This document shows, one piece after another, positions 2,675 through 24,144 of a stretch of 24,746 nucleotides of DNA. The DNA lies in the IMG/VR virus record IMGVR_UViG_3300044491_002358, positions 1 to 24,746 of that record. The stretch is one strand, 5' to 3'. Source of the stretch: a virus. Below the pieces are notes generated by a model. That model was not told where the DNA came from and ran no database searches. It was given only the letters and a program-made list of their open reading frames with translations. The first letter of the stretch is position 1. Each line of letters starts with the position of its first letter. Both the position numbers and the translations under genes were made by a program.

Positions 2675-3341
2675 ATGCACCTACTGTGGCAAAGAGTTCG
2701 CAAAAGAGAGGACCTTGCAGGTACACCTTTGTGAACCCAAACGTAGATATCTACAGCGAGATGAGAAATGGGTGGTCAACGCATTCATGGTGTTCCAGCG
2801 ATTCTATCAGATACACCAACACAACTCCAAACCTAGAACATACGACGACTTCGTCAAGAGTGCGTACTACAACGCGTTCGTGAAGTTTGGAAGATACATC
2901 ATGCACATCAACCCGTTGTACCCTGACAAGTACATAGACTACGTGCTACGATCAAAGATCAAACTGGATCACTGGGCCAGGGACGATCTGTACGAGGAGT
3001 ACCTGATCGAGACTTTGAAATCAGAACCCGTGGAGTCGGCTTTGCAACGTAGCATAGCCACCATGATGGATTGGGCCAACGAACAGAATGCACAGTGGAG
3101 CGACTACTTCAGGTTGGTCAACACTAACAGGGCTGTACAACACATACAACAAGGTGCGATAAGTCCGTGGTTACTGTTAGGTTGCAGTGCGGGGAAGAAG
3201 ATGTTAAAATCATTTAACGACGAACAACTACAAATGATTGAGAGATTCATAAACCCTAGTTTCTGGCCAAGCAAGATAAAGAGCTACCCAGCGGACCTAC
3301 TGCTGGTGCAGGAGACGGCAAGGGAGGCCAAGATTGTCTAA
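2658..3341 (+). CDS. zinc-finger phage protein (C2H2-type N terminus, 227 aa)
   Basis: Residues 7-24 form a compact zinc finger: CTYCGKEF, then HLCEPKRR, giving Cys-x2-Cys followed by His/Cys ligands and a basic tail, as in eukaryote-like C2H2 or zinc-ribbon fingers. The rest, about 190 aa, is helical and rich in aromatics with no recognised domain. It probably binds DNA or RNA through the finger and a partner through the body; its place in the uvsW replication operon supports a role in nucleic-acid metabolism. It overlaps the flanking genes by 17 nt and 8 nt. The finger is visible; the function is inferred. Confidence 0.75.
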   Translation: MASTNKCTYCGKEFAKERTLQVHLCEPKRRYLQRDEKWVVNAFMVFQRFYQIHQHNSKPRTYDDFVKSAYYNAFVKFGRYIMHINPLYPDKYIDYVLRSKIKLDHWARDDLYEEYLIETLKSEPVESALQRSIATMMDWANEQNAQWSDYFRLVNTNRAVQHIQQGAISPWLLLGCSAGKKMLKSFNDEQLQMIERFINPSFWPSKIKSYPADLLLVQETAREAKIV

Positions 3342-4684: not shown

Positions 4685-5488
4685 ATGCAAACAGTTTCAA
4701 GGTATTTACTCATACAGTTGGTAATAGCCTACATAAATGGTTATCATGGAAGGAATTCAAAAGTGTACGATAGACGCTTAACACTGCACAGAGGGGTCAA
4801 CAATCCCATAACATTCACGTTCAAGAACGAGGATCAGAAGGCCCAGGACATCACGAGCAAGACCTACGAGTTCAACATGATCGACTCGGAGACCAAAAAA
4901 GCGGTGCTAACCAAGACGTTGACCATATTGGACGACGGATCCACAGTGAGCACGAAGGGTGATGCCAGTTGTACTATCACAGAAGGTGATCTATTGCCAC
5001 TGGATGCCAAGTTCTACAACTTTGCAGTACGTGAAGTCAAGTCGGACGGTAGTAGAGAGATTACATACTCAGACACAGGATACGCGGCCGCGGGTACCAT
5101 AGAACTGCTAGATGGTGCTTACCCAGAGTTCGTTGCCAGCACTGAAATTTCAAGTTTCACAGCAGTGGGTGGACCACTGACCTACACATCAGGATCCACG
5201 GATGCCAGACCGGGCATCAACAACAACAAGGCACTGCACACGATCGCAGTGTACACCAAAAACTTCTCCGGCACACTGAGGGTGCAAGGCACCATGAGCG
5301 CAAGTCCGGGGTCAAGCGATTGGTTTAATATTACCATGGATGGTGCAGTCTCTACAGCCAACACTTTCTCTAGTTCCACCACAGTTACCAACTACAACTT
5401 CTACGGTGTTTATCACAGTGTGAGATTTAGTTGGGGCAATGACAGTGGTAACACTGGTGTGATTGACAAAATCCTATATAGACAGTAA
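4685..5488 (+). CDS. virion structural protein, probably tail or baseplate associated (267 aa)
   Basis: The N-terminal segment MQTVSRYLLIQ and following NGYHGRNSKVYDRRLTLHRG leads into a beta-sandwich-like domain (NPITFTFKNEDQKAQDITS, then a strand-rich region to about residue 140). This looks like the N-terminal part of phage baseplate or receptor-binding attachment proteins. Residues ~150-267 form a Ser/Thr/Gly/Asn-rich beta domain ending in SWGNDSG, typical of surface-exposed virion modules. No signal peptide. Expressed from the late promoter just upstream; there is no Shine-Dalgarno before the ATG. Structural role is inferred from composition and promoter class; the exact virion location is unknown. 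Confidence 0.6.
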   Translation: MQTVSRYLLIQLVIAYINGYHGRNSKVYDRRLTLHRGVNNPITFTFKNEDQKAQDITSKTYEFNMIDSETKKAVLTKTLTILDDGSTVSTKGDASCTITEGDLLPLDAKFYNFAVREVKSDGSREITYSDTGYAAAGTIELLDGAYPEFVASTEISSFTAVGGPLTYTSGSTDARPGINNNKALHTIAVYTKNFSGTLRVQGTMSASPGSSDWFNITMDGAVSTANTFSSSTTVTNYNFYGVYHSVRFSWGNDSGNTGVIDKILYRQ

Positions 5489-5498
5489 AATATAGTTT

Positions 5499-6512
5499 AT
5501 GAATCTGATCCAGTCTACTATTCTGACAAGTCTACCTACGGGTAGGAAGAAGACACCCAGCGGGTGGATAAGTTTCAACGCACCTTGTTGTGTATACAAC
5601 GGCGAGTCAGCAGACAAGAAGAAAAGGGGAGGCATAATGACCAGTGCGGACGGCACAGTCAGTTATCACTGCTTCAACTGTGGATTCAAGGCCAGTTATG
5701 TGATAGGCAGGAAACTGTCACACAAGATGAGACAGTTCATGGGCTACGTAGGCATACCCGAGGACACCATACGCAAGTTGGCCATAGAAGCCATGCGAGA
5801 AGAGGAGGGTGATGTCAAGTATGAGAAGAAGAAATTCGTAACATTCAAGAAGAAACAGTTGCCAAAGAACACACACAAACTGGATGTATGGTTGGAGAAA
5901 TACGTTGGAAATGACCTCACAGAACCACAATGGAAAAGGATTGACGGACTGCTGAAATACCTCGAGAACCGGGGAATGGGTGCAGATTGGTACGACTTCA
6001 TGTATTCTCCAGATCAACACTGGGACGTGGACAAACGGATACTGATACCTTTCTACTGGCGTGGAGACATAGTGGGATTCACAGGACGTATGTTTGAACA
6101 ATCAGACAAGGTCAAGTATTACACAGACGTACAGCCAGGATATGTATTCAATATGGACGCACAGGACTGGACCAGGAAATTCGTATTGGTCACAGAAGGT
6201 CCATTTGATGCGATCGCCGTATCTGGGGTAAGCATACTGGGATCAGAGATAAATGACACACAGCGTGAACTGATCGACGGACTGGGTAGACAAGTGATCG
6301 TAGTTCCCGATAGAGATGCACCAGGCCAGAAATTGGTAGAGCAGGCAATGGAATTTGGATGGAGTGTTGCTTTTCCAGAATGGGACAAAGCGGTTGGCGA
6401 TGTGGCAGAGGCTGTGTTACAATATGGTAGACTGTTTACTATACAATCAATTCTGAAGACAACCGAATCGAGTAAACTGAAAATAGATTTAAAGAGAAAG
6501 ATGTATGGCTGA
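5499..6512 (+). CDS. DNA primase, T4 gp61-type
   Basis: Makes RNA primers for lagging-strand synthesis and works in complex with the gp41 helicase encoded next. Architecture: an N-terminal zinc-binding module with Cys30/Cys31 and a C-x2-C pair at Cys58/Cys61, a linker, then a TOPRIM domain with the acidic motif TEGPFDAIA (Glu233) and PDRDAPG (Asp271/Asp273). Length 337 aa matches T4 gp61 (about 340). The last 8 nt overlap the helicase gene, so the primase and helicase are translationally coupled. It begins 10 nt after the virion gene. No catalytic residue appears to be missing. Confidence 0.93.
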   Translation: MNLIQSTILTSLPTGRKKTPSGWISFNAPCCVYNGESADKKKRGGIMTSADGTVSYHCFNCGFKASYVIGRKLSHKMRQFMGYVGIPEDTIRKLAIEAMREEEGDVKYEKKKFVTFKKKQLPKNTHKLDVWLEKYVGNDLTEPQWKRIDGLLKYLENRGMGADWYDFMYSPDQHWDVDKRILIPFYWRGDIVGFTGRMFEQSDKVKYYTDVQPGYVFNMDAQDWTRKFVLVTEGPFDAIAVSGVSILGSEINDTQRELIDGLGRQVIVVPDRDAPGQKLVEQAMEFGWSVAFPEWDKAVGDVAEAVLQYGRLFTIQSILKTTESSKLKIDLKRKMYG

Positions 6513-7938
6513 ATACACATTTGATGTACAAAAACTTTATATAGAGATGTTGCTGGCGGATGCGGAATCATTTGCGAGAGCACAAAACATATTCAAACCA
6601 GAATCATTTGACCGTAAACTACAACCCATAGCCAAGTTCGTCAAGGACTACATGGACGAGTATAAGGTCATGCCAGATGTGGAGCAGGTCAATGCCAAAC
6701 ATGATGTCAAACTTAAATCAGCCAAGGACCTAGATCCAAGCCACTTCAACTGGCTGTTAGACGAATTTGAAACTTTCTCTAGGCACAAGGCACTGGAACA
6801 AGCAATACTGCAATCAGCGGATCTATTAGAGAAGGGTGACTACGGTCCTGTAGAGGACATGGTCAAGGAAGCGGTCAGCGTGGGACTTACACGTGACCTA
6901 GGCACAGACTACTTTGAGGACCCAAAAGGTAGACTAACGGCCCTCAAGGACAACAACGGTCAGATCAGTACAGGCTGGGCCAACCTAGACAAGAAATTGT
7001 TTGGGGGATTCAACCGAGGAGAACTAAACATCTTTGCAGGTGGATCAGGCGCAGGTAAGAGTTTGTTCTTACAGAATCTCGCAGTGAATTGGGCTACTGC
7101 TGGGCTGAATGTGTGTTACATATCTTTCGAATTGAGTGAACAACTGACAGCCATGAGGCTAGATGCCATGATGACCAACATACCCACACGTAAGGTGTTC
7201 CCAGAGATAGACAACGTGGAGATGAAGGTCAAGATGATGGCAAAGAAGTCTGGATTACTACAGATCAAGTATCTGCCGAGTGGTAGCAACGTGCTAGACG
7301 TTAGGACGTATCTCAAGGAACTAGAACTCAAGACCAAGAAGAAAATAGACTGCATACTGATAGATTACCTTGATCTCATGATGCCAAAGAGCAAGAAGAT
7401 ATCACCAGCAGACCTGTTCATCAAGGACAAGTACGTGAGTGAGGAACTGAGGAATTTGGTGGTCGAGAAACAGTGTGTGTTGGCAACAGCATCGCAGTTG
7501 AACCGGGCATCTGTAGAAGAGATAGAGTTTGATCACAGTCACATATCGGGCGGACTGTCCAAGATACAGACAGCGGACAACGTGATAGGTATATTCACTT
7601 CAAGGGCAATGAAAGAACGTGGCAGGTATCAGATACAGTTCATGAAGACCAGATCCAGTTCGGGTGTAGGACAAAAAGTGGATCTCGAGTTTGATGTGGA
7701 CAGTCTGCGTATCAGAAGCCTGGACGAGGACGAGTCACAGAGCTACAATCAGCAGGGCAAGAACAAGATTTATGATTCATTGAAGCAAACATCTAAAGTT
7801 ACAGGTACTACAGATGCTAGATCAGAAGTACCAGATCCTCGTAAGGGCGATAACTTAGGAGTCAAGGTCAAGGCTACAGTCGAGGGCGGGAAACTGAGAC
7901 AACTGCTAAATGAATTGCACTCAGATGAAGAACAATAA
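6505..7938 (+). CDS. replicative DNA helicase, T4 gp41 / DnaB-type
   Basis: Hexameric 5'-3' helicase of the replication fork. RecA-like core with Walker A GGSGAGKS at residues 179-186, ISFELSEQ around 206-213, and Walker B CILIDYLDLM near 285. ATASQLNR and the late ISGGLSKIQTADNVIGI stretch match the DnaB/gp41 H3-H4 motifs. The N-terminal ~130 residues are the helical collar domain. At 477 aa it matches T4 gp41 (475). Overlaps the primase by 8 nt and the following methyltransferase by a few bases. The tail beyond ~400 is Ser/Thr/Lys-rich and probably disordered. Confidence 0.95.
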   Translation: MAEYTFDVQKLYIEMLLADAESFARAQNIFKPESFDRKLQPIAKFVKDYMDEYKVMPDVEQVNAKHDVKLKSAKDLDPSHFNWLLDEFETFSRHKALEQAILQSADLLEKGDYGPVEDMVKEAVSVGLTRDLGTDYFEDPKGRLTALKDNNGQISTGWANLDKKLFGGFNRGELNIFAGGSGAGKSLFLQNLAVNWATAGLNVCYISFELSEQLTAMRLDAMMTNIPTRKVFPEIDNVEMKVKMMAKKSGLLQIKYLPSGSNVLDVRTYLKELELKTKKKIDCILIDYLDLMMPKSKKISPADLFIKDKYVSEELRNLVVEKQCVLATASQLNRASVEEIEFDHSHISGGLSKIQTADNVIGIFTSRAMKERGRYQIQFMKTRSSSGVGQKVDLEFDVDSLRIRSLDEDESQSYNQQGKNKIYDSLKQTSKVTGTTDARSEVPDPRKGDNLGVKVKATVEGGKLRQLLNELHSDEEQ

Positions 7939-9297: not shown

Positions 9298-10236
9298 CTA
9301 GAATTTAAACTTGATTCCAGCCGCCATGTCTGCTGTGTCTGTGCCTGACACCACGTCAGTCATCTCGTAACCAGCGTACATGCTGAAGTTGTCACCGATT
9401 TTCTTTTCAGCTCCAACTGTTGTGTAGGCAGTCCCACTCTTGACTTTACCGTAACCTGCTGAGAACGTTGTGTTTCCCACTGTGTGTGAGGCAACGTACT
9501 CGTTGGCTTTGGTATCAAGGTTGGTCGATTCCACCGTCTTGATTGTGTGGTTGTAACCAATCGTTGTGGCATCTGTGATGTCAAATGATGCACCAACACC
9601 CTTGTACTCGATGTTGTTCACTTTGTCATCCGTGTAAGCGATACCCACGTTTAGGCCGTCGCTGATGTCCATAGAGGCCGCAGTCTCGTAAACGTCAACG
9701 CCTGATTTACCAGTTGTACCGTCAACTTTTACCAAGTTGTCGAACTGGATCGCACCGATGCTGTTAGAGTAGATCACTGTGTGTGAGTCTCTGCTGAACA
9801 GTTTCTGTGCGGCAGTATTACCATATTCTGGGAACACATCTGTCTTAGATGTGACAGCACCCTTGAACACAGAGTTCTGTCTTCCTGCTGATAGCACACC
9901 TGCTCCGCCCATGTCAACTCCGGCGAAAGCCAGTTTTGAATCGAATGGTGTGGAACCAGAGTCATCCGCGTCGATGTCCACTTCTAACTTGGCGAAGCCG
10001 TCGATGCCCTCTGCGATGTTGCTTGAAAAGTCAACACCAATTGAGGAACCGTTGTTCTCCGCTTTTGCTGTTGCCACGCCTGAAGCGTTCTCGTTGTTTG
10101 AAACCATGTAGTTCAGTGAACCATACACCTTCATCTCTGTCGCTTCGGCTGGGGCTGGTTTGAACACCGCCCATAAAACGATGACTGCAACTACAATCGC
10201 CGCACCTATCGTCCATTTGTTCTTAGTAATTTTCAT
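9298..10236 (-). CDS. Gram-negative outer-membrane porin (312 aa)
   Basis: Beta-barrel porin of the general Gram-negative type. An N-terminal export signal (basic KITKNK, hydrophobic residues 10-25, then APAEA before TEMKVYG) suggests signal peptidase cleavage around residue 33. Repeated amphipathic strands follow, such as MKVYGSLNYMVS and FAKLEVDID, and the chain ends in Phe (GIKFKF), the outer-membrane assembly signal. A good Shine-Dalgarno (AGGAGATC) precedes the ATG. It has its own promoter, a structured leader and a terminator, so it is an independent unit. It could alter nutrient entry in the infected host or exclude other phages; both are inference. Confidence 0.85.
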   Translation of the reverse strand: MKITKNKWTIGAAIVVAVIVLWAVFKPAPAEATEMKVYGSLNYMVSNNENASGVATAKAENNGSSIGVDFSSNIAEGIDGFAKLEVDIDADDSGSTPFDSKLAFAGVDMGGAGVLSAGRQNSVFKGAVTSKTDVFPEYGNTAAQKLFSRDSHTVIYSNSIGAIQFDNLVKVDGTTGKSGVDVYETAASMDISDGLNVGIAYTDDKVNNIEYKGVGASFDITDATTIGYNHTIKTVESTNLDTKANEYVASHTVGNTTFSAGYGKVKSGTAYTTVGAEKKIGDNFSMYAGYEMTDVVSGTDTADMAAGIKFKF

Positions 10237-10371: not shown

Positions 10372-10447
10372 CACTTAATAATTGTATTTGGTAAACTTTT
10401 TCCGTGTGCTCAACGTTGAATAATTACAACGAACAGGAGGCGGAATC

Positions 10448-10615
10448 ATGGGCATACACTACGACTACAAGAGCACCAGGGGTGCCAAGAAGATGCAGAA
10501 ACAACAGGAACGGGAACAGCGCAGGCGTAGGAGGAAGACACAGGACCTGCCCGCCAACAAACCAGCCGAGGACAAACCCCTGACCTTGGACATGATCACT
10601 GATCCCACGAAATGA
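10448..10615 (+). CDS. small basic phage protein (55 aa)
   Basis: Starts MGIHYDYKSTRGAKKM, continues with a QQEREQRRRRRK basic helix, then a proline/acid tail. It has a perfect AGGAGG Shine-Dalgarno seven bases before the ATG and overlaps the radical SAM gene as ATGA, so it is clearly translated. No fold recognised; the arginine run suggests RNA or DNA binding. It may supply coupled translation for the radical SAM enzyme, or be its partner. Confidence 0.7.
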   Translation: MGIHYDYKSTRGAKKMQKQQEREQRRRRRKTQDLPANKPAEDKPLTLDMITDPTK

Positions 10616-11643
10616 TAAATCAACGACTGTTCGATCACTATAGCATCGACACGGACAAGGATTTAAAGATAAAGGAAATTTGTCCTCGACCTTTCGACAC
10701 CTTGCTGATAGACAAGCAAGGATCGTGTTATGCGTGTGAGTGCCAGGCCTGGTTACCGCAGAGCGTAGGCAACCTACAGATCAAAGAATTACAAGATATA
10801 ATGGATTCAGCCACGCGACGGCTACTACAATCTTCCGTGACCGACGGCACGTACAAGTACTGTAATGAAAAACGTTGCCCACACCTGAAGCATGGCATGG
10901 GCTGGAATGAAGGAAGACGATTCCAGTTGAGGCTGGCCATCGATGACTCCTGTAACCTAAGATGTCCTAGTTGTAGGAAAGAACTGATACACCATAAAGA
11001 AGGCAATGCCTACAGTCGGGGGATCAAACTGGCCGATCGTATCAACAGTTGGCTGTCGTCAAATAACGGTCCCGTACAGGTACACATAGGTTCAGACGGT
11101 GATCCGTTCGCTTCATACGTATACAGATACTTCATGGAAAACACCCCAAGATCAAAAGATATCAATTACAGTATATTGACCAATGGACTAATGTTCAAAG
11201 AGTTCCACTCAAGAATCCCGCATGTGATAGACAACCTTACACAACTAGGAGTAAGCATAGATGGTGCCAGCAAAGACACCTACGAGAAACTTAGGTTGGG
11301 AGGGAAGTGGACAAAGATACTAGAGAATCTTCAGTGCATCAAAGATGTAAAATCAAAAAAAGGGTTTGAATTCGTATTACACTTTGTTGTACAAAAACAA
11401 AATTATCACGAAATGGAGATGATCATAGAGTTGGCCCGCGAATACCAAGCAGACAGATTGTGGATCAACAAGATCGAAGACTGGCAAGTGATGGACAACT
11501 GGTCAACCCAAGACATATTCAACGAACATCATCCAGAGAATGGCAAATTCATTCAACACCTTGAAAAAATAAAATCTCTATTAGATCACAAAATAAAAGG
11601 CTTGATTGTGGAGGCTCCGCAACTTTACAAAGCACAGCAATAG
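10612..11643 (+). CDS. radical SAM enzyme with N-terminal SPASM-like cysteine region (343 aa)
   Basis: The radical SAM cluster motif CNLRCPSC (Cys114, Cys118, Cys121) follows RLAIDDS, and a TIM-barrel half follows with VQVHIGSDGDPFAS, INYSILTNGLMF and LGVSIDGASKDTYEKLR, typical of the family. Before it, residues 24-90 form a cysteine-rich region (Cys24, 39, 42, 44, 84, 89) with GSCYACECQAW, VGNLQ and YKYCNEKRCPHL. That pattern resembles the SPASM auxiliary-cluster domain normally found after the core. Predicted to bind two or more Fe-S clusters; substrate unknown, peptide or small molecule possible. Overlaps the small basic gene by four bases and converges on the SGNH gene with a 3-nt gap. 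Confidence 0.85.
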   Translation: MINQRLFDHYSIDTDKDLKIKEICPRPFDTLLIDKQGSCYACECQAWLPQSVGNLQIKELQDIMDSATRRLLQSSVTDGTYKYCNEKRCPHLKHGMGWNEGRRFQLRLAIDDSCNLRCPSCRKELIHHKEGNAYSRGIKLADRINSWLSSNNGPVQVHIGSDGDPFASYVYRYFMENTPRSKDINYSILTNGLMFKEFHSRIPHVIDNLTQLGVSIDGASKDTYEKLRLGGKWTKILENLQCIKDVKSKKGFEFVLHFVVQKQNYHEMEMIIELAREYQADRLWINKIEDWQVMDNWSTQDIFNEHHPENGKFIQHLEKIKSLLDHKIKGLIVEAPQLYKAQQ

Positions 11644-11646
11644 AAG

Positions 11647-12333
11647 TTATTTCAATTTACTGTGAAATCTATCCAAGAACAGTTTGGCGAACTGAGTGTG
11701 ATGCTCAATACCAAAATGCACCCCATCCCGAGCTAGACTGGGTTCCGTGTGTATGTCTCTCGCAGTGTGTCTGTCCCAGTGGGGCCAACAGTTTCGAAGT
11801 GTATACTTTTCTAGCAGTGCGGGACTGTTCCCAGTGGTGCGAAAATCAATATAGTTTTCGGCAAAGCAGTGAAATATTTGACAGTTATTTTTTTCAGCAA
11901 ACTTCTCGAGAAAAAACACAGATTTTAAAAAATTGTTTGTGTCAGTTTTAGAATTTTCAAATCGCAATCTCTCATCCGTTCCTGGTATATTATTAGCATA
12001 ATCTTCTAATCTCTCCCTACGACTGATTTCGGGCCACATCACTATTATGATTTTAGGATATAACACCCTCTCACACGAGTACAATATCCTGACCACAGTC
12101 TCGGGGCCTGCTCCGGGCTGGCCGAGATTCCAGTATCTCAATCGCTCGGTGTTGTGTTGACTCACACGGTGCGCCCAAGTCTCGTTGGATTCCAACCCCA
12201 CACCCCAAGTATGAGAGCAACCCAGTATGACAACATTTTTCTTGCCTTCGGGTAATGGGTTCCACGATGGACATCTAAAAGGATATTTCTCTAGTGTCTT
12301 TAGATCGTTGTCGGAATAGAAACCGTACTTCAT
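11647..12333 (-). CDS. SGNH/GDSL-type hydrolase (228 aa)
   Basis: Esterase-like fold: block I GCSHTWGVGL with nucleophile Ser40, block II NLGQPGAG, and block V DGVHFG with Asp203 and His206. Such enzymes remove or move acyl groups on glycans and lipids. No signal peptide, so cytoplasmic or virion-borne. Its ATG overlaps the end of the upstream gene by four bases and the unit follows four tRNA genes on the same strand. Base composition is AT-richer than the replication genes. Acetyl-ester removal from a surface glycan is possible but unproven. Confidence 0.75.
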   Translation of the reverse strand: MKYGFYSDNDLKTLEKYPFRCPSWNPLPEGKKNVVILGCSHTWGVGLESNETWAHRVSQHNTERLRYWNLGQPGAGPETVVRILYSCERVLYPKIIIVMWPEISRRERLEDYANNIPGTDERLRFENSKTDTNNFLKSVFFLEKFAEKNNCQIFHCFAENYIDFRTTGNSPALLEKYTLRNCWPHWDRHTARDIHTEPSLARDGVHFGIEHHTQFAKLFLDRFHSKLK

Positions 12334-12652: not shown

Positions 12653-12729
12653 TGGTGGACCGGAAAGGATTCGAACCTCCGGCCTTGAGTTCCGCAAACT
12701 CACGCTCTATCCAACTGAGCTACCGGTCC
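12653..12729 (-). tRNA. tRNA-Arg (anticodon GCG)
   Basis: Minus-strand cloverleaf: acceptor GGACCGG/CCGGTCC, discriminator A, encoded CCA (12655-12653), D-stem GCTC/GAGC, anticodon stem TGAGT/ACTCA with loop TTGCGGA, T-arm GGAGG TTCGAAT CCTTT. The anticodon GCG reads CGC/CGU. Bacteria normally use ACG (edited to inosine) here. Confidence 0.9.
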
Positions 12730-12732
12730 ATT

Positions 12733-12809
12733 TGGTGTGCCCGGCAGGATTCGAACCTGCGACCTTCGGTTTAGGAAACCAACATTCTATCCAACTGAAC
12801 TACGGGCAC
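12733..12809 (-). tRNA. tRNA-Arg (anticodon CCT)
   Basis: Acceptor GTGCCCG/CGGGCAC, discriminator A, encoded CCA, anticodon stem TTGGT/ACCGA with loop TTCCTAA, T-arm GCAGG TTCGAAT CCTGC. Reads AGG, an arginine codon used often in the genes of this window. The D-stem GTTC/GAAT has one G-U pair. Confidence 0.92.
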
Positions 12810-12825
12810 ATCAAGTGGACTTGTG

Positions 12826-12899
12826 TGGTGGAGGATAGGAGAGTCGAACTCCTGACTCATCCATGCCATGGATGCGTGATCCCACTTCACCAATCCCCC
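12826..12899 (-). tRNA. tRNA-Ala (anticodon GGC)
   Basis: Acceptor GGGGGAT/ATCCTCC contains the G3-U70 wobble pair, the classic alanine identity element. D-stem GTGA/TCAC, anticodon stem CATCC/GGATG with loop ATGGCAT, T-arm AGGAG TTCGACT CTCCT, encoded CCA. Reads GCC/GCU; GCC is common in this window. Confidence 0.92.
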
Positions 12900-12971
12900 A
12901 AATAAACCAATCACATGCGAGACCATTGACTTCTTTGGTGTATATGGTAATTCTGGCATAATTGGTTCTTG

Positions 12972-13047
12972 TGGTGCCGCTTCACGGATTCGAACCGCGG
13001 ACCTACTGATTACAAATCAGTTGCTCTACCGGCTGAGCTAAAGCGGC
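12972..13047 (-). tRNA. tRNA-Thr (anticodon TGT)
   Basis: Acceptor GCCGCTT/AAGCGGC, D-stem GCTC/GAGC, anticodon stem ACTGA/TCAGT with loop TTTGTAA, T-arm CGCGG TTCGAAT CCGTG, discriminator A and encoded CCA. Reads ACA. First gene of the tRNA cluster. Confidence 0.95.
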
Positions 13048-15528: not shown

Positions 15529-16401
15529 TTATTTTCCTACCCAGTTCTTGCCCGCTTTGTCTAAGATAGCAGACCAACCTGTTGAATCTAGTTCACCATA
15601 AGATGCAGGATGTGAAAGTTGGTTCTTTGTGATGTGTCCTGCAACAGACTCATCCTTCAACAATCTAACCCACGCCGATCTAAGTTTGGCAACATCGGAC
15701 TCACTTATGTTGGCAGAATCTAAATATGTAAACGTCTCGAGGTCATTGTACTTGTACTCTGGGAAAACATTCCTCATTGGTTCCATATCTAATATCTTTG
15801 TTGGTCCTGTGTTCGCCCAACATTTTATACCATTGTTTTTTATTCCACTCAATGCTTTTGGCATGTTTGTGAACAGCATGTCTGTGTCACCTGCTACGAA
15901 ACCAACAAGACTCTTTCCTGATGATCCGTACGGAACAAACTTCATCGGGGTGCCAGTCACTTCTACTAATGGGTCTATCAAGTGTTGCCCATAAGAATTT
16001 GAAACTGCGAAAGTAAGTCTTTTCCCGGCTTTCAATTTTTGAACTGCCACATCTAACGTGTCGGTAGAGCAGAACGCCATTGCTCTTCCCCATCCGGTTC
16101 CGATCCATGATTCAGGTGTCGCCTGTAATTCATTGCCTTCGGTCTCGTGCTCGAGTGTGTTCTGTATCCACACGCTAGGGTTCTTGCTTTTCTTGAGATA
16201 GATGGTTGCTCCTACTGTGCTGTCAACAATGATCTTGTTGAACTTGTATCCTGTTTCTCTTTCAAGAATTGGGATGAACAATTCAGCATTGTCATAGGCA
16301 GTGCCACCTGGAGTACCTGTTACTAGGTAATCGATTGTTTTTGCATTCGCAGACATCATGGTCAACAGCGAAACAAAAAGTGTTATAAGTATTTTCTTCA
16401 T
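15529..16401 (-). CDS. TctC-type periplasmic substrate-binding protein (290 aa)
   Basis: Solute-binding subunit of a tripartite tricarboxylate transporter (TctABC), which imports citrate-like acids or other carboxylates. Signal peptide MKKILITLFVSLLTMMSANA with cleavage after residue 20. Core features: LVTGTPGGTAYDNAELF, FVPYGSSGKSLVGFVAGDTDMLF and GIKCWANTGP, all typical of the Bug/TctC family. The usual length is ~300-320 aa. A fully consensus sigma70 promoter sits upstream and AAAGGAC serves as ribosome binding site. TctA is encoded next to it on the same strand. Confidence 0.88.
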   Translation of the reverse strand: MKKILITLFVSLLTMMSANAKTIDYLVTGTPGGTAYDNAELFIPILERETGYKFNKIIVDSTVGATIYLKKSKNPSVWIQNTLEHETEGNELQATPESWIGTGWGRAMAFCSTDTLDVAVQKLKAGKRLTFAVSNSYGQHLIDPLVEVTGTPMKFVPYGSSGKSLVGFVAGDTDMLFTNMPKALSGIKNNGIKCWANTGPTKILDMEPMRNVFPEYKYNDLETFTYLDSANISESDVAKLRSAWVRLLKDESVAGHITKNQLSHPASYGELDSTGWSAILDKAGKNWVGK

Positions 16402-16432
16402 TTTTTTGTCCTTTTTTAGTTAACTGTAAAAT

Positions 16433-16461
16433 ATTATACAGAAACAAATTAGCGTTGTCAA
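16433..16461 (-). promoter_or_regulatory. perfect consensus sigma70 promoter for tctC
   Basis: Minus strand TTGACA (16461-16456), 17-nt spacer, TATAAT (16438-16433): both boxes perfect. It leaves a ~25-nt leader with a Shine-Dalgarno before the tctC ATG. A 10-bp inverted repeat arm overlaps the -35. Confidence 0.85.
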
Positions 16462-16524
16462 CAGATGCGCTAGACACAAGACAATAGGAGTTAGATATTG
16501 CTATCATGTCGTTACGCATCTGTT
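16460..16524. other. inverted repeat / structured element upstream of the tctC promoter
   Basis: Arms AACAGATGCG (16460-16469) and CGCATCTGTT (16515-16524) match perfectly over 10 bp with 45 nt between. Inside, GACA/TGTC and CAATA/TATTG can pair as further stems. The left arm touches the -35 box. Could be an operator pair, a looped site or a small structured RNA. Confidence 0.5.
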
Positions 16525-16573
16525 TGTGAATGTTGGCCTGATTCGGCGCACGGGCTGGCGTTCTCGTAAGAGT

Positions 16574-16610
16574 AAAAAGAGATCCGGGATTGGCATAATT
16601 TAGATCTCTT
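16574..16610 (-). terminator. intrinsic terminator after tctA
   Basis: On the minus strand AAGAGATC and GATCTCTT (16610-16603 / 16584-16577) form an 8-bp stem with an 18-nt loop, followed by a T run. It lies 76 nt after the tctA stop and separates tctA from the tctC transcript. Confidence 0.6.
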
Positions 16611-16685
16611 AGGCGTCAGTATTTGTCCCGACGTCAATGCATTGCATTGGCGCTACAGAATTATTTATCACGATAATCGAGACGC

Positions 16686-18086
16686 TTACAAATAAGGCAT
16701 GTGTGGTAACAAATCAGAGTACATGTGGAACAGCCTAATCAAAGCACCTTGTATCTGTCCTTGTAACACGAACGCAAAAATTAATATCAATGTGTCCCAT
16801 CTTCTTAGGAGATATCCCAAAGGCAACAGTGCTATGGTTACAATTATGTAGTACATCTGTTGTTGGACAATCGTGCCCATGTAGAAAACCAAACACATCA
16901 ACAGTATGAAAGTACAGGTGTAAAGAACTTTTTGATTTACCTTGAACAACACATGTAGATGTTTGGCAAAGGGCCACGCCGCCAGTAAACACAACGCGTT
17001 CATCACCACAAAGTACATCGCCAGTGTCCCGAACATTCCCGATTCCACCGTGGTCTTCCAATTTACGACCTCCATGTTGTTCTCTATTATGTTCAGCACG
17101 ATTGCTTCGCTGGTTGTGATTGGGATTCCTATCAACAATAACGGTGTCAGTTGGGTCAGCCCCGCGGCATTGTTGGCCGTCTCCGCACTGACCAGGCTCT
17201 TGATGTCTCCGTTCTCGTCATAGATGCCACGCTTCTTGCTTCTGCTCATCTCCCTGATGTAGGCAACGTTGCTGGCCAGTGTAGAAGTCATGTGCGGCAC
17301 GAGTCCACACAGGCTACCTATCACTGTACCCCTGATGCTGGAACCTATGTTTCGCCAAAACTCTTTGAGGTGCTGTATGAACTTGTTGTCCCACAGTTTG
17401 TCTAACACCTTGGAGTCTGGCCTGGGTGAGTTCCATTCTTTCAGAAATATTGGGAAAACAAATAGTGCCACCACCACTGGATACAGTGGCAATCCGAAGT
17501 GTAGATAATAGAATTTCTTATAGTCTATGAGGTACTCGTAGTTGTATTGCATCAGTTCTTTTGAAAAACCTATAGAGCTGAGGAACCAACCTATTGCGAA
17601 CAGCGAGAGGTTGTGATACCACTTCTGGCCTGCATAGGTTATTATCAAAAACAAGGCTACGACAACGAGTATTATCGACTGTACATGGGTGTTGTAAAAA
17701 TTAGATATGGCATACACTCCCACGGGCAATAACAATAACATTATGCCTGACGCGAGGCTGGCTCCGAAGAAACTGCCTATGGCACTGTTGCTGATGGCGT
17801 AGTTGCCCCTACCCGAAAGGAACATCCTGTGTCCTTCTGTGACCGCCGGTAGACTGGAAGTCTCACCAGGGACCGCGAGGGTGGTCGCAACCACACTGCC
17901 TGTGTACTGTGCCGCACCCGCCAGACACATGTAGAATAGAACTATATGGAAAAGATCAAAATCTGTGATGAACGGATACACCATTATCAAAATCACCACA
18001 TTGCCTATTCCGGGTAGCATACCTGCTATCAGTCCAAGCACTATGCCAGACAACATTACCATGGAATTCAATAAAACTAGATCCAT
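16686..18086 (-). CDS. TctA-type membrane subunit of a tripartite tricarboxylate transporter (466 aa)
   Basis: Large membrane channel of the TctABC system, many transmembrane helices over the whole length. Signature motifs: GLIAGMLPGIGNV near residue 18, TTLAVPGETSSLPAVTEGH around 67-85, and the second-half repeat SAETANNAAGLTQLTPLL with GIPITTSEAIV. Slightly shorter than the usual ~500 aa. No TctB-like 4-helix subunit lies in the window. A TTGACT-16-TATAAT promoter at the end of the upstream gene ends six bases before this ATG, with no good Shine-Dalgarno, so the transcript may be leaderless. It probably acts with the TctC encoded next. Confidence 0.9.
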   Translation of the reverse strand: MDLVLLNSMVMLSGIVLGLIAGMLPGIGNVVILIMVYPFITDFDLFHIVLFYMCLAGAAQYTGSVVATTLAVPGETSSLPAVTEGHRMFLSGRGNYAISNSAIGSFFGASLASGIMLLLLPVGVYAISNFYNTHVQSIILVVVALFLIITYAGQKWYHNLSLFAIGWFLSSIGFSKELMQYNYEYLIDYKKFYYLHFGLPLYPVVVALFVFPIFLKEWNSPRPDSKVLDKLWDNKFIQHLKEFWRNIGSSIRGTVIGSLCGLVPHMTSTLASNVAYIREMSRSKKRGIYDENGDIKSLVSAETANNAAGLTQLTPLLLIGIPITTSEAIVLNIIENNMEVVNWKTTVESGMFGTLAMYFVVMNALCLLAAWPFAKHLHVLFKVNQKVLYTCTFILLMCLVFYMGTIVQQQMYYIIVTIALLPLGYLLRRWDTLILIFAFVLQGQIQGALIRLFHMYSDLLPHMPYL

Positions 18087-20515: not shown

Positions 20516-21469
20516 TTATTTTGAGTGTGTGACCTTTTCTCTCTGGAGATCGTTTGTCATGCAGTGCAGTCCATTGTCCCAAAAAAGATGATGTCTGAAC
20601 GGGACGGTGTGTACGGTGATTCCCAGCGTCTCAAGTTTTTCGTATACCTCGCTGTTTTGACTGATAGCCACGACATTCTTATCATCTATTATTGAAAGAT
20701 TAAGATCGAACAGCGTTTCCTCGCAATAGCCCACCCAATTAGAAAGATAGTCGTCGACAAATTTTATGTCTTGGTTGTTCAGTGTTTCTTTGGCCACCAG
20801 GAACCTGCCTCTGGTTTTGAGTAGCTCGTTCTTTTTTTTCCATTCTAAATAATTCGTCCAGTCGTTGATCTCGCCACCCGCAGATGTTGACAGTTGAAAA
20901 ACAGGAGTGTCTGGCCAATATTTTTGGAAGTTCAATACGTTACCGTTGGTCAGCCATATCTTGTCAGCGACATTACAATAGATCCCGTCGGCGTGTCCTT
21001 CATTGAATGCCGTGATGATCTTTCTCTTCGGTGACAATTCGTTTTTCCACCACACGTAAGACTCGTGTGGCTCAATTCCATCCAGTATTGCGTAGTCATG
21101 ATGAATGTAAATGTCGGGTGCATAACTTCCTCGGTAGGGCACTTGTATTTTGTTGGGCACCGACGAATAAAATTCTGATAGACAGTCTAGATTTTGAGTG
21201 ATGTACATCTTGTCGTCGACAACCACAAAGACATCTCTCATGCCAAGGGAATTCTCAATTTTTTTAACAGGATATGTTAAAACAGTGACCCCGAGCGACT
21301 CGTAGGTGCTTTTGATCACTTGGAGGTCTTCGTGGGTTTCTTCCACCACTTTTTGTATCTTGTAAGGCATGGGCTTGCCCGTTATGTCAATTATCGTTTC
21401 AACTGAGGGTATATTGCCCAGCAACACTGTCTGTAAACGATTGATGCTGTTGGGAGCCCATAGTTCCAT
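20516..21469 (-). CDS. amidinotransferase-family enzyme (317 aa)
   Basis: Guanidino-group modifying enzyme of the arginine:glycine amidinotransferase superfamily. The C terminus has the catalytic block HHLFWDNGLHCMTNDLQRE with nucleophile Cys303 after His302; GMRDVFVVVDD supplies the acidic segment and AFNEGHADG the catalytic His. Possible products are guanidino compounds from arginine. The frame extends upstream to 21508, but the ATG at 21469 overlaps the bL33 stop as TAATG and gives a natural N terminus (MELWAPNSINRLQTVLLGN). The match to transferase versus hydrolase members cannot be decided from sequence alone. Confidence 0.82.
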   Translation of the reverse strand: MELWAPNSINRLQTVLLGNIPSVETIIDITGKPMPYKIQKVVEETHEDLQVIKSTYESLGVTVLTYPVKKIENSLGMRDVFVVVDDKMYITQNLDCLSEFYSSVPNKIQVPYRGSYAPDIYIHHDYAILDGIEPHESYVWWKNELSPKRKIITAFNEGHADGIYCNVADKIWLTNGNVLNFQKYWPDTPVFQLSTSAGGEINDWTNYLEWKKKNELLKTRGRFLVAKETLNNQDIKFVDDYLSNWVGYCEETLFDLNLSIIDDKNVVAISQNSEVYEKLETLGITVHTVPFRHHLFWDNGLHCMTNDLQREKVTHSK

Positions 21470-21684
21470 TACTTGCTGTGTGGTGGCAGTTTCTTCTCTA
21501 CCCACCATATGTGCTTCTGTGTGATGGGGTCGAATTTGCGCATTCTTAGTTTCTGATTCTGTTTCTCTCCCTTGCCGGGCTTTGTGGCGTAGTAATAGAA
21601 TGCATGGTCCTTCATGCTCGGATCTTCCGGGACCAATCTAACTTTTACGTAGGGTTTTTTTGACTTGGGCTTTTTTGCGGCCAT
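21469..21684 (-). CDS. bL33-like ribosomal protein (71 aa)
   Basis: The end RMRKFDPITQKHIWWVEKKL matches the bL33 signature LxLRKYDPxxRKHVxxKExK, and VKVRLVPEDP matches its IKIKLVS start. An insertion (SMKDHAFYYYATKPGKGEKQ) replaces the short Zn-knuckle loop, and basic N-terminal AAKKPKSKKP suits rRNA contact. At 71 aa it is longer than host L33 (~55). It could replace host bL33 in the large subunit and shape phage translation. Coupled to the amidinotransferase by TAATG and overlapped by the small membrane ORF at its 5' end. Confidence 0.7.
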   Translation of the reverse strand: MAAKKPKSKKPYVKVRLVPEDPSMKDHAFYYYATKPGKGEKQNQKLRMRKFDPITQKHIWWVEKKLPPHSK

Positions 21685-21754
21685 GTAGATATCCTAGTTG
21701 ATATGCCACTGCTATGAACGTGGCGATTATTAGTGTGTGCCAGATGTAAAACAT
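21638..21754 (-). CDS. small membrane ORF overlapping bL33 (38 aa)
   Basis: MFYIWHTLIIATFIAVAYQL forms one hydrophobic helix, followed by GYLHGRKKAQVKKTLRK, a basic tail. It starts 7 nt after the clpP stop and overlaps the bL33 gene by 47 nt in another frame. The helix-plus-basic-tail pattern supports a real gene, but the ribosome binding site is weak. Confidence 0.5.
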   Translation of the reverse strand: MFYIWHTLIIATFIAVAYQLGYLHGRKKAQVKKTLRKS

Positions 21755-21760
21755 GTGCTA

Positions 21761-22363
21761 TTAATTAGCCTGGTCGTCGTCGACCCTTGTAGTTATTATC
21801 CTGTCGGCCAGTCCGTACCCCACCGCTTCTGTGGGGGTCATGAACTTGTCACGTTCCATGTCCGCTTTCAATTTCTCCAGTGGTTGTCCTGTCGTCTTCT
21901 CGTAGATCTCTGTCAGCTCTTTCTTCCAACGTAGCAGTTCGTTGGCCCTGATCTCCACGTCGGTGGCCTGACCACTCGCTCCGCCCAATGGTTGGTGGAT
22001 CATGTGTCGTGCGTGTGGCAACATCAGTCTCTTGCCTTTGGTGCCCGCACTCGCTAGGAGTGAGCCCATGCTACACGCCTGGCCCACCACTATGGTCTGT
22101 ATGTCTGATCTCACATACTGCATGGTGTCGTATATGGCCATGCCCGCCGTTACCAGACCGCCCGGCGAATTGATATACAGTGTGATATCCTTCGAGGCGT
22201 CTTGTGATTCCAAGAACAACAGTTGGGCACACAGCACTGAAGCGGTGTGTTCCTCTATCGGTCCTTCCAACATGATTATCCTGTCCCGGAGCAATCTACT
22301 GAAAATGTCGTAGGATCTTTCGCCCTTGGATGTCTGTTCTATCACTATTGGTGTAAGTGGCAT
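21761..22363 (-). CDS. clpP: ClpP serine protease subunit (200 aa)
   Basis: Proteolytic barrel subunit that degrades substrates delivered by a host ClpX or ClpA unfoldase. Complete catalytic triad: Ser98 in GQACSMGS, His123 in [10 protein letters not shown] and Asp172 in ERDKFMTP. The length (200) and start [24 protein letters not shown] match bacterial ClpP without a propeptide. A strong promoter (TTGACT-17-TATTAT) has its -10 six bases before the ATG with no Shine-Dalgarno, suggesting a leaderless mRNA. First gene of the operon with the small membrane protein, bL33 and amidinotransferase. No phage unfoldase is seen, so it depends on host partners. Confidence 0.96.
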
Positions 22364-22366
22364 AGT

Positions 22367-22384
22367 GTTATAATATGCTATAAC
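22367..22384. promoter_or_regulatory. inverted repeat GTTATA-N6-TATAAC over the clpP -10 box
   Basis: Perfect 6-bp arms GTTATA (22367-22372) and TATAAC (22379-22384) with six bases between, covering the -10 box. The same hexamers, head to head, cover the -10 box at 24611-24624, suggesting a shared repressor or activator site. Confidence 0.5.
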
Positions 22385-22398
22385 CTGTGATCAGTCAA
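22370..22398 (-). promoter_or_regulatory. sigma70 promoter for clpP, leaderless-type
   Basis: Minus strand TTGACT (22398-22393), 17-nt spacer, TATTAT (22375-22370), then six bases to the clpP ATG. Each box has one mismatch to consensus. Confidence 0.7.
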
Positions 22399-22417
22399 CC
22401 TTTAAATATCTGCACTA

Positions 22418-22651
22418 GTGAGATGGTTCCTGATCGTGTATTTCCTCACCATGGGCACGGATGGTAATATGACATGGCGCACCGCCGAGGAGCTGGGACG
22501 CGACGGTTGGCATCGCATGGAGCACCCTGACTCTGAGAGTTGCCGACAGGCACAGGACCGATTCACCGAGAACACCAATGGCGCCTTGATGAGGGCCGCC
22601 TGTGAATACCGTGCTTCAGAGATTACGGTTGGGCAACTGCCACCACTGTAA
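22418..22651 (+). CDS. small protein of unknown function (77 aa), GTG start
   Basis: GTG start, then a hydrophobic stretch RWFLIVYFLTMG that may be a signal or anchor. The rest is polar and cysteine-containing (two Cys), ending ASEITVGQLPPL. A TTTAAATA box ends nine bases before the GTG. An ATG inside the hydrophobic stretch is an alternative start. Divergent from clpP; its 3' end overlaps the Stf0-like gene tail by 36 nt, tail to tail. Function unknown. Confidence 0.5.
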   Translation: MRWFLIVYFLTMGTDGNMTWRTAEELGRDGWHRMEHPDSESCRQAQDRFTENTNGALMRAACEYRASEITVGQLPPL

Positions 22652-23194
22652 TTGGTGCCAATTGGCACACAAGGAACGCAGTGATCTGGGATTGATAGGG
22701 AATCTCGATCTATGTGTGTGCTCCACCTGGAAACCCAATCCACGAGCGACGCCGTGTACGTCGTCGATGAGGTCCTCGCGATAGATCACACTCACGGGAG
22801 AGGGTGCGGTGTCTAGCCATTCCCGTTCACAATCGACCACGAATCGTGCGGTCCAGTCGAACTCCTCCTGTGTGATCGTGACGGGCTCCATCTCGCGATC
22901 CGAGTACACCACGAACTCCCGTGTGCGTTGGCTCACTATCTTGCTCAGCACCTGTGATCTGAAATCCCTCCTGCGCACCAACACGCATCTCCACTGCACT
23001 TCCGGGTTTGGCCACCCGCGTTGGTGGTCGTACCACACCTGTGGTCGCTCCGACGTGAGCCTCTCGCGTCGCTGTTCATCGGTGGTCAGCTGTTCGGTCC
23101 AGCACAGCTCGTAGCCGGCCTGTTCCACCGTGCCCAACAGCAGGTGTGAGGCCGTGCGTCCCGCGGACTTTATCAACCACCTAGGTGGTGTCAT
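22616..23194 (-). CDS. Stf0-like sulfotransferase (192 aa)
   Basis: Sulfotransferase with the phosphosulfate loop IKSAGRTASHLLL at residues 8-20 and the 3'-phosphate segment CVLVRRRDFRSQVLS at 70-84, then IYREDLIDD and ARGLGF, a pattern close to the trehalose sulfotransferase Stf0 and similar small enzymes. The open frame runs upstream through the pyruvate kinase gene in another frame, but the ATG at 23194 overlaps the kinase stop as ATGA and is the clear start. GC-rich like the kinase. The partner or acceptor is unknown. Confidence 0.75.
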   Translation of the reverse strand: MTPPRWLIKSAGRTASHLLLGTVEQAGYELCWTEQLTTDEQRRERLTSERPQVWYDHQRGWPNPEVQWRCVLVRRRDFRSQVLSKIVSQRTREFVVYSDREMEPVTITQEEFDWTARFVVDCEREWLDTAPSPVSVIYREDLIDDVHGVARGLGFQVEHTHRSRFPINPRSLRSLCANWHQLQWWQLPNRNL

Positions 23195-24144
23195 CGTGTG
23201 TGCCCGTTGTCCCGATAAACCTGGAATATGCGATGGACCTGTCGCACACAGCCCAGGGGGTGCTCGCCGATGGCGGTCTCCGCCGCCAGCACCAGTCCGT
23301 CGGCGCCCTGCTCCAGTGCCGTGTACACGTCTGATATCTCCGCACGGGTGGGTTCCGCCCTGGTTAGCATGCTCTCCAGGAAGTTGGTGGCCATGTACAC
23401 CCGTGTGCCCGGCGTTAGACTGCGTTGGTGCATGACCCGACGTTGGGCCACCGGCACCTGTTCCGCGCCGATCTCCTTGCCCAGGTCGCCGCGATCTATC
23501 AGGAACTGCCTGCCGGGCCTGAACATCCGTCCCAGGTCCGCCATGGCACTCTTGGTCTCGATCTTGTAGATCAGCCTGTGTGACGGCAACATGTGTTCGA
23601 ACTGCTCGACGGAGTGTGCGTCCTGTGTGAAACTGAGGGCGAACGTGTCTATGCCCATGGACCTTGCGCGTTCGATGGCCTGTTGGTCCTTGCGGGTCAG
23701 TGCGGGCAACGTCACCGAGTGCTCCGCGACATGCACCCCCTTGTTGGGGGACAGCCGACCGTGTTGTGTGCATTCGCACGTGATGGCGTCCTTGTTCGCG
23801 CTCGACACCCGCACCTGTAGACCATCGAATCCTATGATCATGGTGTCGCCCGTGTGTATCTGTGGCCATGCCTCCGGGGGTGTGATCTGGTCCGGGGTGA
23901 ACACCACGGTGTCACCCACGTGGTGGTCGCGCTGGTCCACGTTGGTCGTCCTGATCTGTGCGCCTTCCGTGTCCACGCATATGGGCACCCGGGTGTGACG
24001 CCTGATCTCCTCTATGGCGTCGACCATCCCTGGCACGGTCATGTGGCTCATGTTCAGGCGCAGTAGGTCCACCTGGCCAGTGATCCGGCCGAGGAACCCC
24101 GCGTTGAGTGTGCTGGGGCCTAGTGTTGCGAACAGTTCGGGCAT
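23191..24144 (-). CDS. pyruvate kinase, lacking the C-terminal domain (317 aa)
   Basis: Converts phosphoenolpyruvate and ADP to pyruvate and ATP. Conserved core: ATLGPST (6-12), RLNMSH (29-34), DTEGAQIR (58-65), YKIETKS with Lys194 and Glu196, IDRGDLGKEI with Asp220, MATNFLESM with Thr253, and EPTRAEISDVYTALEQGADG through AAETAIGEHPL. Lys194, Glu196, Asp220 and Thr253 correspond to the catalytic and metal-binding residues of E. coli PykF. The ~150-residue C-terminal allosteric domain is absent (usual length ~470), so activity may be unregulated. A TTTAAATA box lies five bases before the ATG and there is no Shine-Dalgarno. Confidence 0.88.
   Translation of the reverse strand: MPELFATLGPSTLNAGFLGRITGQVDLLRLNMSHMTVPGMVDAIEEIRRHTRVPICVDTEGAQIRTTNVDQRDHHVGDTVVFTPDQITPPEAWPQIHTGDTMIIGFDGLQVRVSSANKDAITCECTQHGRLSPNKGVHVAEHSVTLPALTRKDQQAIERARSMGIDTFALSFTQDAHSVEQFEHMLPSHRLIYKIETKSAMADLGRMFRPGRQFLIDRGDLGKEIGAEQVPVAQRRVMHQRSLTPGTRVYMATNFLESMLTRAEPTRAEISDVYTALEQGADGLVLAAETAIGEHPLGCVRQVHRIFQVYRDNGHTR

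Follow-up and report, generated by a model that had tools for sequence, protein, structure and literature searches.

What kind of domain precedes the radical SAM core of the enzyme encoded at this locus, and what is the relation of the enzyme to the small protein whose gene overlaps its own? A preliminary description had read the cysteines ahead of the core as a SPASM-like domain in reversed order, and the small basic gene upstream as coding for a possible substrate or partner. The material analysed is the IMG/VR virus record IMGVR_UViG_3300044491_002358, a stretch of 24,746 bases referred to below as the window, whose source is an uncultured marine phage. The enzyme and the small protein are named RSAM1 and PEP. 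The features of the locus are the following.

10435 to 10440, + strand: AGGAGG, Shine-Dalgarno-like site for PEP, read in the sequence; the PEP start lies 7 nt after it
10448 to 10615, + strand: PEP, 55-aa basic small protein (MGIHYDYK...LTLDMITDPTK), based on the ATGA overlap with RSAM1, homologs and purifying selection
10612 to 11643, + strand: RSAM1, radical SAM enzyme of 343 aa with an ATG start, predicted N-terminal twitch domain followed by the core
10681 to 10878, + strand: N-terminal twitch/SPASM-like domain (residues 24-89), based on a sub-threshold PF13186 match, AlphaFold strands and helices, and cysteine conservation
10948 to 11436, + strand: radical SAM core match (residues 113-275), PF04055, E 9.7e-10
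9298 to 10236, - strand: beta-barrel/porin-like protein, divergent neighbour, labelled by the look of its sequence, with no convincing Pfam match
11647 to 12333, - strand: SGNH/GDSL hydrolase-like protein, convergent neighbour (weak Pfam match, E 0.04)

The beta-barrel/porin-like and SGNH/GDSL hydrolase-like genes are the most frequent upstream and downstream neighbours, respectively, across loci. No near-identical phage record was found for the window beyond two tRNA stretches. The best cultured-phage relatives of its replicative helicase (6505-7938) belong to large Pseudomonas phages, e.g. PA5oct (54% identity over 88%). On the minus strand, the window also carries four tRNA genes, Arg(gcg), Arg(cct), Ala(ggc) and Thr(tgt), at 12653-13047, a TctA-type tricarboxylate transporter gene (PF01970, E 1.9e-62) with an adjoining secreted-looking gene at 15529-18086, and genes for an arginine-deiminase-like protein (weak match), ClpP (E 1.5e-80) and a pyruvate kinase barrel (E 1.1e-47) at 20516-24144.

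RSAM1 contains six cysteines (24, 39, 42, 44, 84 and 89) that are all N-terminal to the core motif C114-x3-C118-x2-C121. The elements GSCYACECQAW, VGNLQ and C84-x4-C89 are all present in this part of the protein. The enzyme belongs to the radical SAM superfamily, as Pfam Radical_SAM (PF04055) matches residues 113-275 with 39.3 bits for a cut-off of 29.5 and C114, C118 and C121 are found in 76/76 sequences. The Pfam SPASM profile (PF13186) aligns with residues 24-89 over its positions 1-66 of 67, at 18.8 bits for a cut-off of 21.5. C24, C42, C44, C84 and C89 are likewise kept in the 76 RSAM1 sequences and C39 in 74 of them, the exceptions being L145 and L146. These counts concern 76 of the 77 distinct sequences of the subfamily, and the 77th, L095, shows all six cysteines in a separate alignment. 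Since it is near-invariant across the subfamily, the six-cysteine layout is not a product of chance, and the initial reading of six cysteines with these elements ahead of a CxxxCxxC core is confirmed by the open reading frame and by its conservation.

The conservation of the cysteines was followed in broader sets. Every row of a 100-row alignment (A3) contains C24, C84, C89 and the core cysteines, and at least 90% of the rows contain C42; at E <= 0.01, 95 of these members match PF04055 and 70 match PF13186. Among 143 distinct radical SAM proteins, C24, C42, C84 and C89 are found in 137/137 of those with the N-domain columns, a number that omits six rows in which these columns are empty or cut. 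C39 and C44 occur together only in RSAM1 and in one other paralog of this set, carried by L009, and a scan for relatives of the latter returned only the paralog itself. Four related radical SAM genes devoid of the N-terminal domain lie between primase and helicase (L015:1612-2520, L018:1564-2475, L124:1560-2483 and L102:1177-2106).

Relatives of RSAM1 were searched for in several collections. An IMG/VR scan with RSAM1 as the query returned 25 loci, and a broader alignment-based scan 108 confirmed loci, of which 80 were kept. A collection of genomes from 84,980 species contained a single relative; it lies in a Porticoccaceae MAG, on a 10-kb contig whose gene order resembles that of the viral islands. 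By tblastn, no full relative was detected in 50,697 phage records, the one weak core match being to a Wolbachia phage record. By its sequence, RSAM1 thus defines a separate subfamily with two extra near-invariant cysteines, found here in uncultured viral contigs and one virus-like MAG contig only.

The nature of the N-terminal domain was addressed by structure prediction. The AlphaFold model of RSAM1 based on a 100-sequence alignment has a mean pLDDT of 93.6, with ten-residue block means of 89-98 over residues 1-90; it supersedes an earlier prediction from 23 close homologs in which the pLDDT of this domain was below 50. In the model, a strand (30-33), a second strand (38-40), C42, a third strand (51-54), a short helix (60-64), a longer helix (67-77), C84 and C89 follow each other in this order. 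A twitch domain is described as a three-stranded sheet with a short and a longer helix, in which the ligands precede the hairpin and follow the second strand and the last helix, with the motif CX9-15GX4C (excerpt of PMC6231123). The RSAM1 domain reads C24-x12-G37-x4-C42 followed by the pair C84/C89. This motif and pair were found in 85/86 sequences, the single miss being L095, whose sequence is cut at a wrong start, and the predicted elements occur in the expected order. The motif of the second cluster in seven-Cys SPASM domains, CX2CX5CX3C, is absent from RSAM1, where only C84-x4-C89 comes after the first half. A full two-cluster SPASM domain was therefore rejected, and since the SPASM motif is represented by its first half only, the domain is classified as a one-cluster twitch domain. 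In the predicted structure, the N-terminal domain of RSAM1 is a twitch domain with one predicted auxiliary cluster, plus two unexplained cysteines (39 and 44). The arrangement of an N-terminal twitch domain ahead of a radical SAM core is held with high confidence. The preliminary description was right to place the domain in the SPASM family, given the fit to PF13186 and the twitch elements, but what it called SPASM-like comprises the first half of the motif only. Structure prediction was among the checks that it named, and a model devoid of any auxiliary cluster site was not obtained, since twitch elements and cysteines in ligand order are predicted. In SkfB, the first strand of the C-terminal domain adjoins the first barrel strand (excerpt of PMC6231123), so that an N-terminal position of the twitch domain would be topologically easy.

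The N-terminal twitch layout is real, conserved and unusual, but already known in related proteins. The order of domains noted at the outset was thus correctly described, and its novelty was rejected, as the NCBIfam family NF033640 and Vibrio phage KVP40 already display it. NF033640 (N_Twi_rSAM, twitch domain-containing radical SAM protein) is known here by its name and its matches. Five of the eight paralogs tested from sister islands exceed its cut-off of 170 bits (266.6, 245.8, 243.4, 214.3 and 175.7), with coverage that starts at profile position 1-4 and ends at 326-397 of 398, and with cysteines in the N-terminal part. RSAM1 reaches 37.3 bits through its core alone and is therefore not a member by score, although it has the layout that defines the family, i.e. 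the twitch domain N-terminal to the core. When the profiles of RSAM1 and of NF033640-type paralogs were compared, both the N-terminal domain and the core aligned (probability 98.8%). Both groups have the N-terminal twitch followed by the core, but RSAM1 differs by the extra cysteines 39 and 44 and by GSDGDP where most paralogs have GGEP. NF033640 was detected at E <= 1e-20 in 44/100 members of A3, and above its cut-off in 3/299 sampled genomes of the phylum of the MAG (MAG included) and in 0/14 controls.

Several characterized and uncharacterized enzymes can be compared with RSAM1. The twitch enzymes BtrN, SkfB and MoaA resemble it in the order of strands, helices and Cys ligands, whereas their twitch domain is C-terminal to the core (excerpt of PMC6231123). 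The SPASM enzymes anSME, PqqE, CteB and SuiB share with it the first half of the seven-Cys motif, CX9-15GX4C, but have the second-cluster motif CX2CX5CX3C and carry the domain at the opposite end. The protein KVP40.0272 and its relatives, from cultured T4-like phages, present the N-terminal twitch cysteine pattern before the core as RSAM1 does; KVP40.0272 was recovered with a paralog as the query (22% identity) and not with RSAM1, and its small upstream gene is unlike PEP. The BFVD entry A0A6J5L3D5, uncharacterised and from an uncultured Caudovirales phage, matches the RSAM1 model structurally over its whole length (TM 0.85/0.86, 27% identity). For N-terminal SPASM or twitch domains, the open-licence PMC literature yielded the paper on the tetraether lipid synthase GDGT-MAS (Tes). 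Tes too belongs to the radical SAM enzymes and has an auxiliary-cluster domain at its N-terminus, as predicted for RSAM1, but in addition it has rubredoxin and C-terminal auxiliary-cluster domains (PMC9433317). Its fold matches residues 9-338 of the RSAM1 model with Z 12.8. Viperins head the Foldseek PDB list through the core fold, and RSAM1 reaches 29.8 bits in the viperin family NF038283, below the cut-off of 180. A sequence search of solved structures with RSAM1 gave chance matches only, and among the PDB fold matches listed BtrN does not appear, MoaA appears through its core, and the N-terminal domain is not isolated by any match. Altogether, the layout is frequent in related viral genes and reaches beyond a single curated family model. 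In bacterial genome G100, three or four radical SAM genes with an N-terminal twitch lie in tandem, some in very long open frames (L160-L166, contig C19: 4283-9859).

The small upstream gene was examined in the same way. An independent scan with PEP only returned 70 loci, and 63 distinct full-length homologs of 55-68 aa were obtained. They display conserved ends, MGIH[YH]xYK and TLDMxTDP, and a variable middle, the MGIH N-terminus being present in 63/63; their mean net charge is +6.4 and only two contain a cysteine. PEP is under purifying selection and both of its ends are strongly constrained (pN/pS 0.176/0.684 and 0.201/0.731). The four-nucleotide ATGA overlap is found in 44/59 distinct PEP/RSAM1 pairs. 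A Shine-Dalgarno-like motif precedes PEP in 53 of these pairs and RSAM1 in none, for a background of 369/4250 random 14-mers from the same loci. PEP is thus a real gene that is translationally coupled to RSAM1, and the claim that a small basic gene coupled by ATGA precedes the enzyme was well founded. No convincing match to PEP was found in PDB, Pfam or PHROGs (best PHROG E 0.0023, with 5/17 members matching phrog_22358), and none in cultured phages.

RSAM1 lies directly downstream of PEP in 65 of the 68 PEP loci that could be judged, L049 and L068 being left aside as their records end too close to PEP. In L087, PEP has no adjoining RSAM1 and other radical SAM genes lie nearby. In L092, RSAM1 is found in the same record on the opposite strand, about 7.6 kb away. 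In L062 (6001-6695), RSAM1 is missing and a different gene directly follows PEP and the shared ATG, as if recombination had exploited this junction. PEP therefore persists in the absence of RSAM1 in L062 and L087. Conversely, PEP adjoins RSAM1 in 60/81 RSAM1 loci and is absent from the 900 nt upstream in the other 21. Leaving out two near-copies, 19 of these 21 records, all of them fragments, were searched whole: 16 contain no PEP, one has it about 7.6 kb off on the other strand, and two have its C-terminal half in a fusion. In these fusions (L122 and L123, around 5207-6003), PEP has lost its MGIH end, and its C-terminal half is joined to a 265-aa gene from a different family and still overlaps RSAM1, which suggests that the coupling end can persist without the rest of PEP. 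In some viruses (L007:5662-5850 and relatives), a 62-aa Cys-rich protein, presumably of the DUF1289 type, is encoded between PEP and RSAM1.

The pair stays together while the genes on both flanks vary. On the RSAM1 tree, the presence of PEP changes at least 13 times, at least eight of these changes being forced by well-supported branches (shuffled mean 18.6); the tree was built by a quick method with SH-aLRT support only, after rows below 240 aa had been dropped (85 to 83). In matched sets, PEP distances correlate with those of the helicase at 0.73 and of RSAM1 at 0.43, and with those of the porin at 0.90 and of RSAM1 at 0.62. After controlling for the other genes, the partial correlation between PEP and RSAM1 is 0.15-0.39 (p 0.001-0.009), small but above permutations; these Mantel tests use p-distances, which saturate, and the loci are phylogenetically non-independent. 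Because of these presence changes and of a divergence that tracks helicase and porin, PEP behaves as a resident gene of the virus, and RSAM1 next to it as one that is exchanged and at times lost. Of the two roles envisaged initially for PEP, that of a partner is plausible because the gene is real and translationally coupled, but that of a substrate is not supported, given the 21 loci without PEP, the PEP genes without enzyme and a divergence that follows the phage core.

The genes surrounding RSAM1 provide a context for its function. Its island encodes an FkbM methyltransferase, sulfotransferase-like, SDR and SGNH-like proteins and further radical SAM enzymes, labels which come from weak or family-level matches and in part from the look of the sequence. 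Up to three radical SAM genes of the N-twitch cluster are found per locus. The KVP40 enzyme adjoins a gene annotated with PF00534, a glycosyltransferase family. In pelagimyophages, radical SAM cassettes are reported within LPS-rich host-recognition islands (excerpt of PMC7029224), and 12 radical SAM genes, together with an Fe-S carrier, have been described in a T4-like marine virus (excerpt of PMC5332604). For the chemistry of RSAM1, which we infer entirely, redox tailoring of a surface or small-molecule intermediate is favoured because of this island gene content and of the printed viral radical SAM cassettes.

In the proposed mechanism, C114, C118 and C121 would hold the SAM-cleaving [4Fe-4S] cluster and C24, C42, C84 and C89 one auxiliary cluster. 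By taking up or returning an electron, the latter may allow the 5'-deoxyadenosyl radical to bring about a net oxidation or another type of redox tailoring, as has been proposed for BtrN. C39 and C44 could tune the auxiliary cluster, hold the substrate or donate a hydrogen. RSAM1 would serve a variable viral cargo island, where it would most likely tailor a host surface-polymer or small-molecule intermediate, and PEP would be a co-translated viral partner or neighbour rather than a substrate. The proposal as a whole, an N-twitch radical SAM enzyme engaged in redox tailoring in a viral cargo island with PEP as its partner or neighbour, is given an even chance, and a non-peptide class of substrate is adopted only tentatively, at somewhat less than that. 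In the PDB fold list, the sugar enzymes DesII (Z 15.4) and BlsE (15.0) are on a par with the peptide enzyme SkfB (15.1). Such differences, below 1, are ties, so that fold matches do not separate sugar from peptide enzymes. The best NCBIfam matches of the core, to the protein-maturase model TIGR04317 (65.6 bits) and to a sactipeptide maturase (38.7 bits), are both far below cut-off; at the level of sequence, they lean toward peptide or protein work.

These matches bear on the alternative that RSAM1 modifies the 55-68 aa PEP in a virus-encoded peptide- or protein-modifying pair, with MGIH[YH]xYK and TLDMxTDP as recognition and target sites, which is regarded as unlikely. The direct adjacency in 65/68 PEP loci, the overlap in 44/59 pairs with no Shine-Dalgarno-like motif before RSAM1, and the persistence of the pair between varying flanks all fit such a system, but the enzyme dispenses with PEP upstream in 21/81 loci, PEP occurs without the enzyme in L062 and L087, and at least 13 changes in its presence are counted on the tree. 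Likewise, the strong constraint on both ends of PEP and the small residual correlation with RSAM1 (0.15-0.39) are to be set against a divergence of PEP that follows the phage core and against the rarity of cysteine (2/63). No RRE-like (PqqD) match was found in RSAM1 itself (Pfam, E <= 1), which may speak against peptide modification, though some radical SAM maturases lack an RRE. On the other side, SPASM and twitch radical SAM enzymes often act on peptides (excerpt of PMC6231123). The fuller version of this alternative, a two-gene viral protein-modification system in which a permuted six-cysteine twitch radical SAM enzyme acts on the co-translated MGIH protein of 55-68 aa, is judged less probable still. 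Once the initial Met is removed, PEP would begin with Gly-Ile-His, presumably a copper/nickel-binding (ATCUN) type N-terminus, and if modified by RSAM1, PEP could then serve as a metal-binding or takeover peptide.

PEP could also be an accessory subunit of RSAM1, or an electron-delivery or recognition partner, without being its substrate. Translational coupling and adjacency, the very basic character of PEP and its conserved ends around a variable middle are consistent with this role, which is nevertheless doubtful in view of the losses of PEP and of its divergence, discordant with that of RSAM1. That the N-terminal domain would be a relic and RSAM1 would work by its core cluster alone is very improbable: some relatives encoded between primase and helicase do lack the domain (four rows, plus one cut by a contig end), but C24, C42, C84 and C89 are kept in all 76 RSAM1 sequences and in all 137 proteins bearing the domain. 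The preferred reading is still that of a redox-tailoring enzyme of the cargo island with a predicted twitch cluster.

Many radical SAM genes of marine T4-like viruses are uncharacterised. RSAM1 represents a well-delimited subfamily among them, for which a second cluster site is predicted, the model is reliable and a small gene is coupled to that of the enzyme; one anaerobic expression experiment could therefore reveal the role of such viral enzymes. In L092, the record that contains RSAM1 also has a gene (2887-3261) for an Fe-S assembly protein of PaaD/SufT-like appearance, which agrees with the paaD genes published for T4-like viruses.
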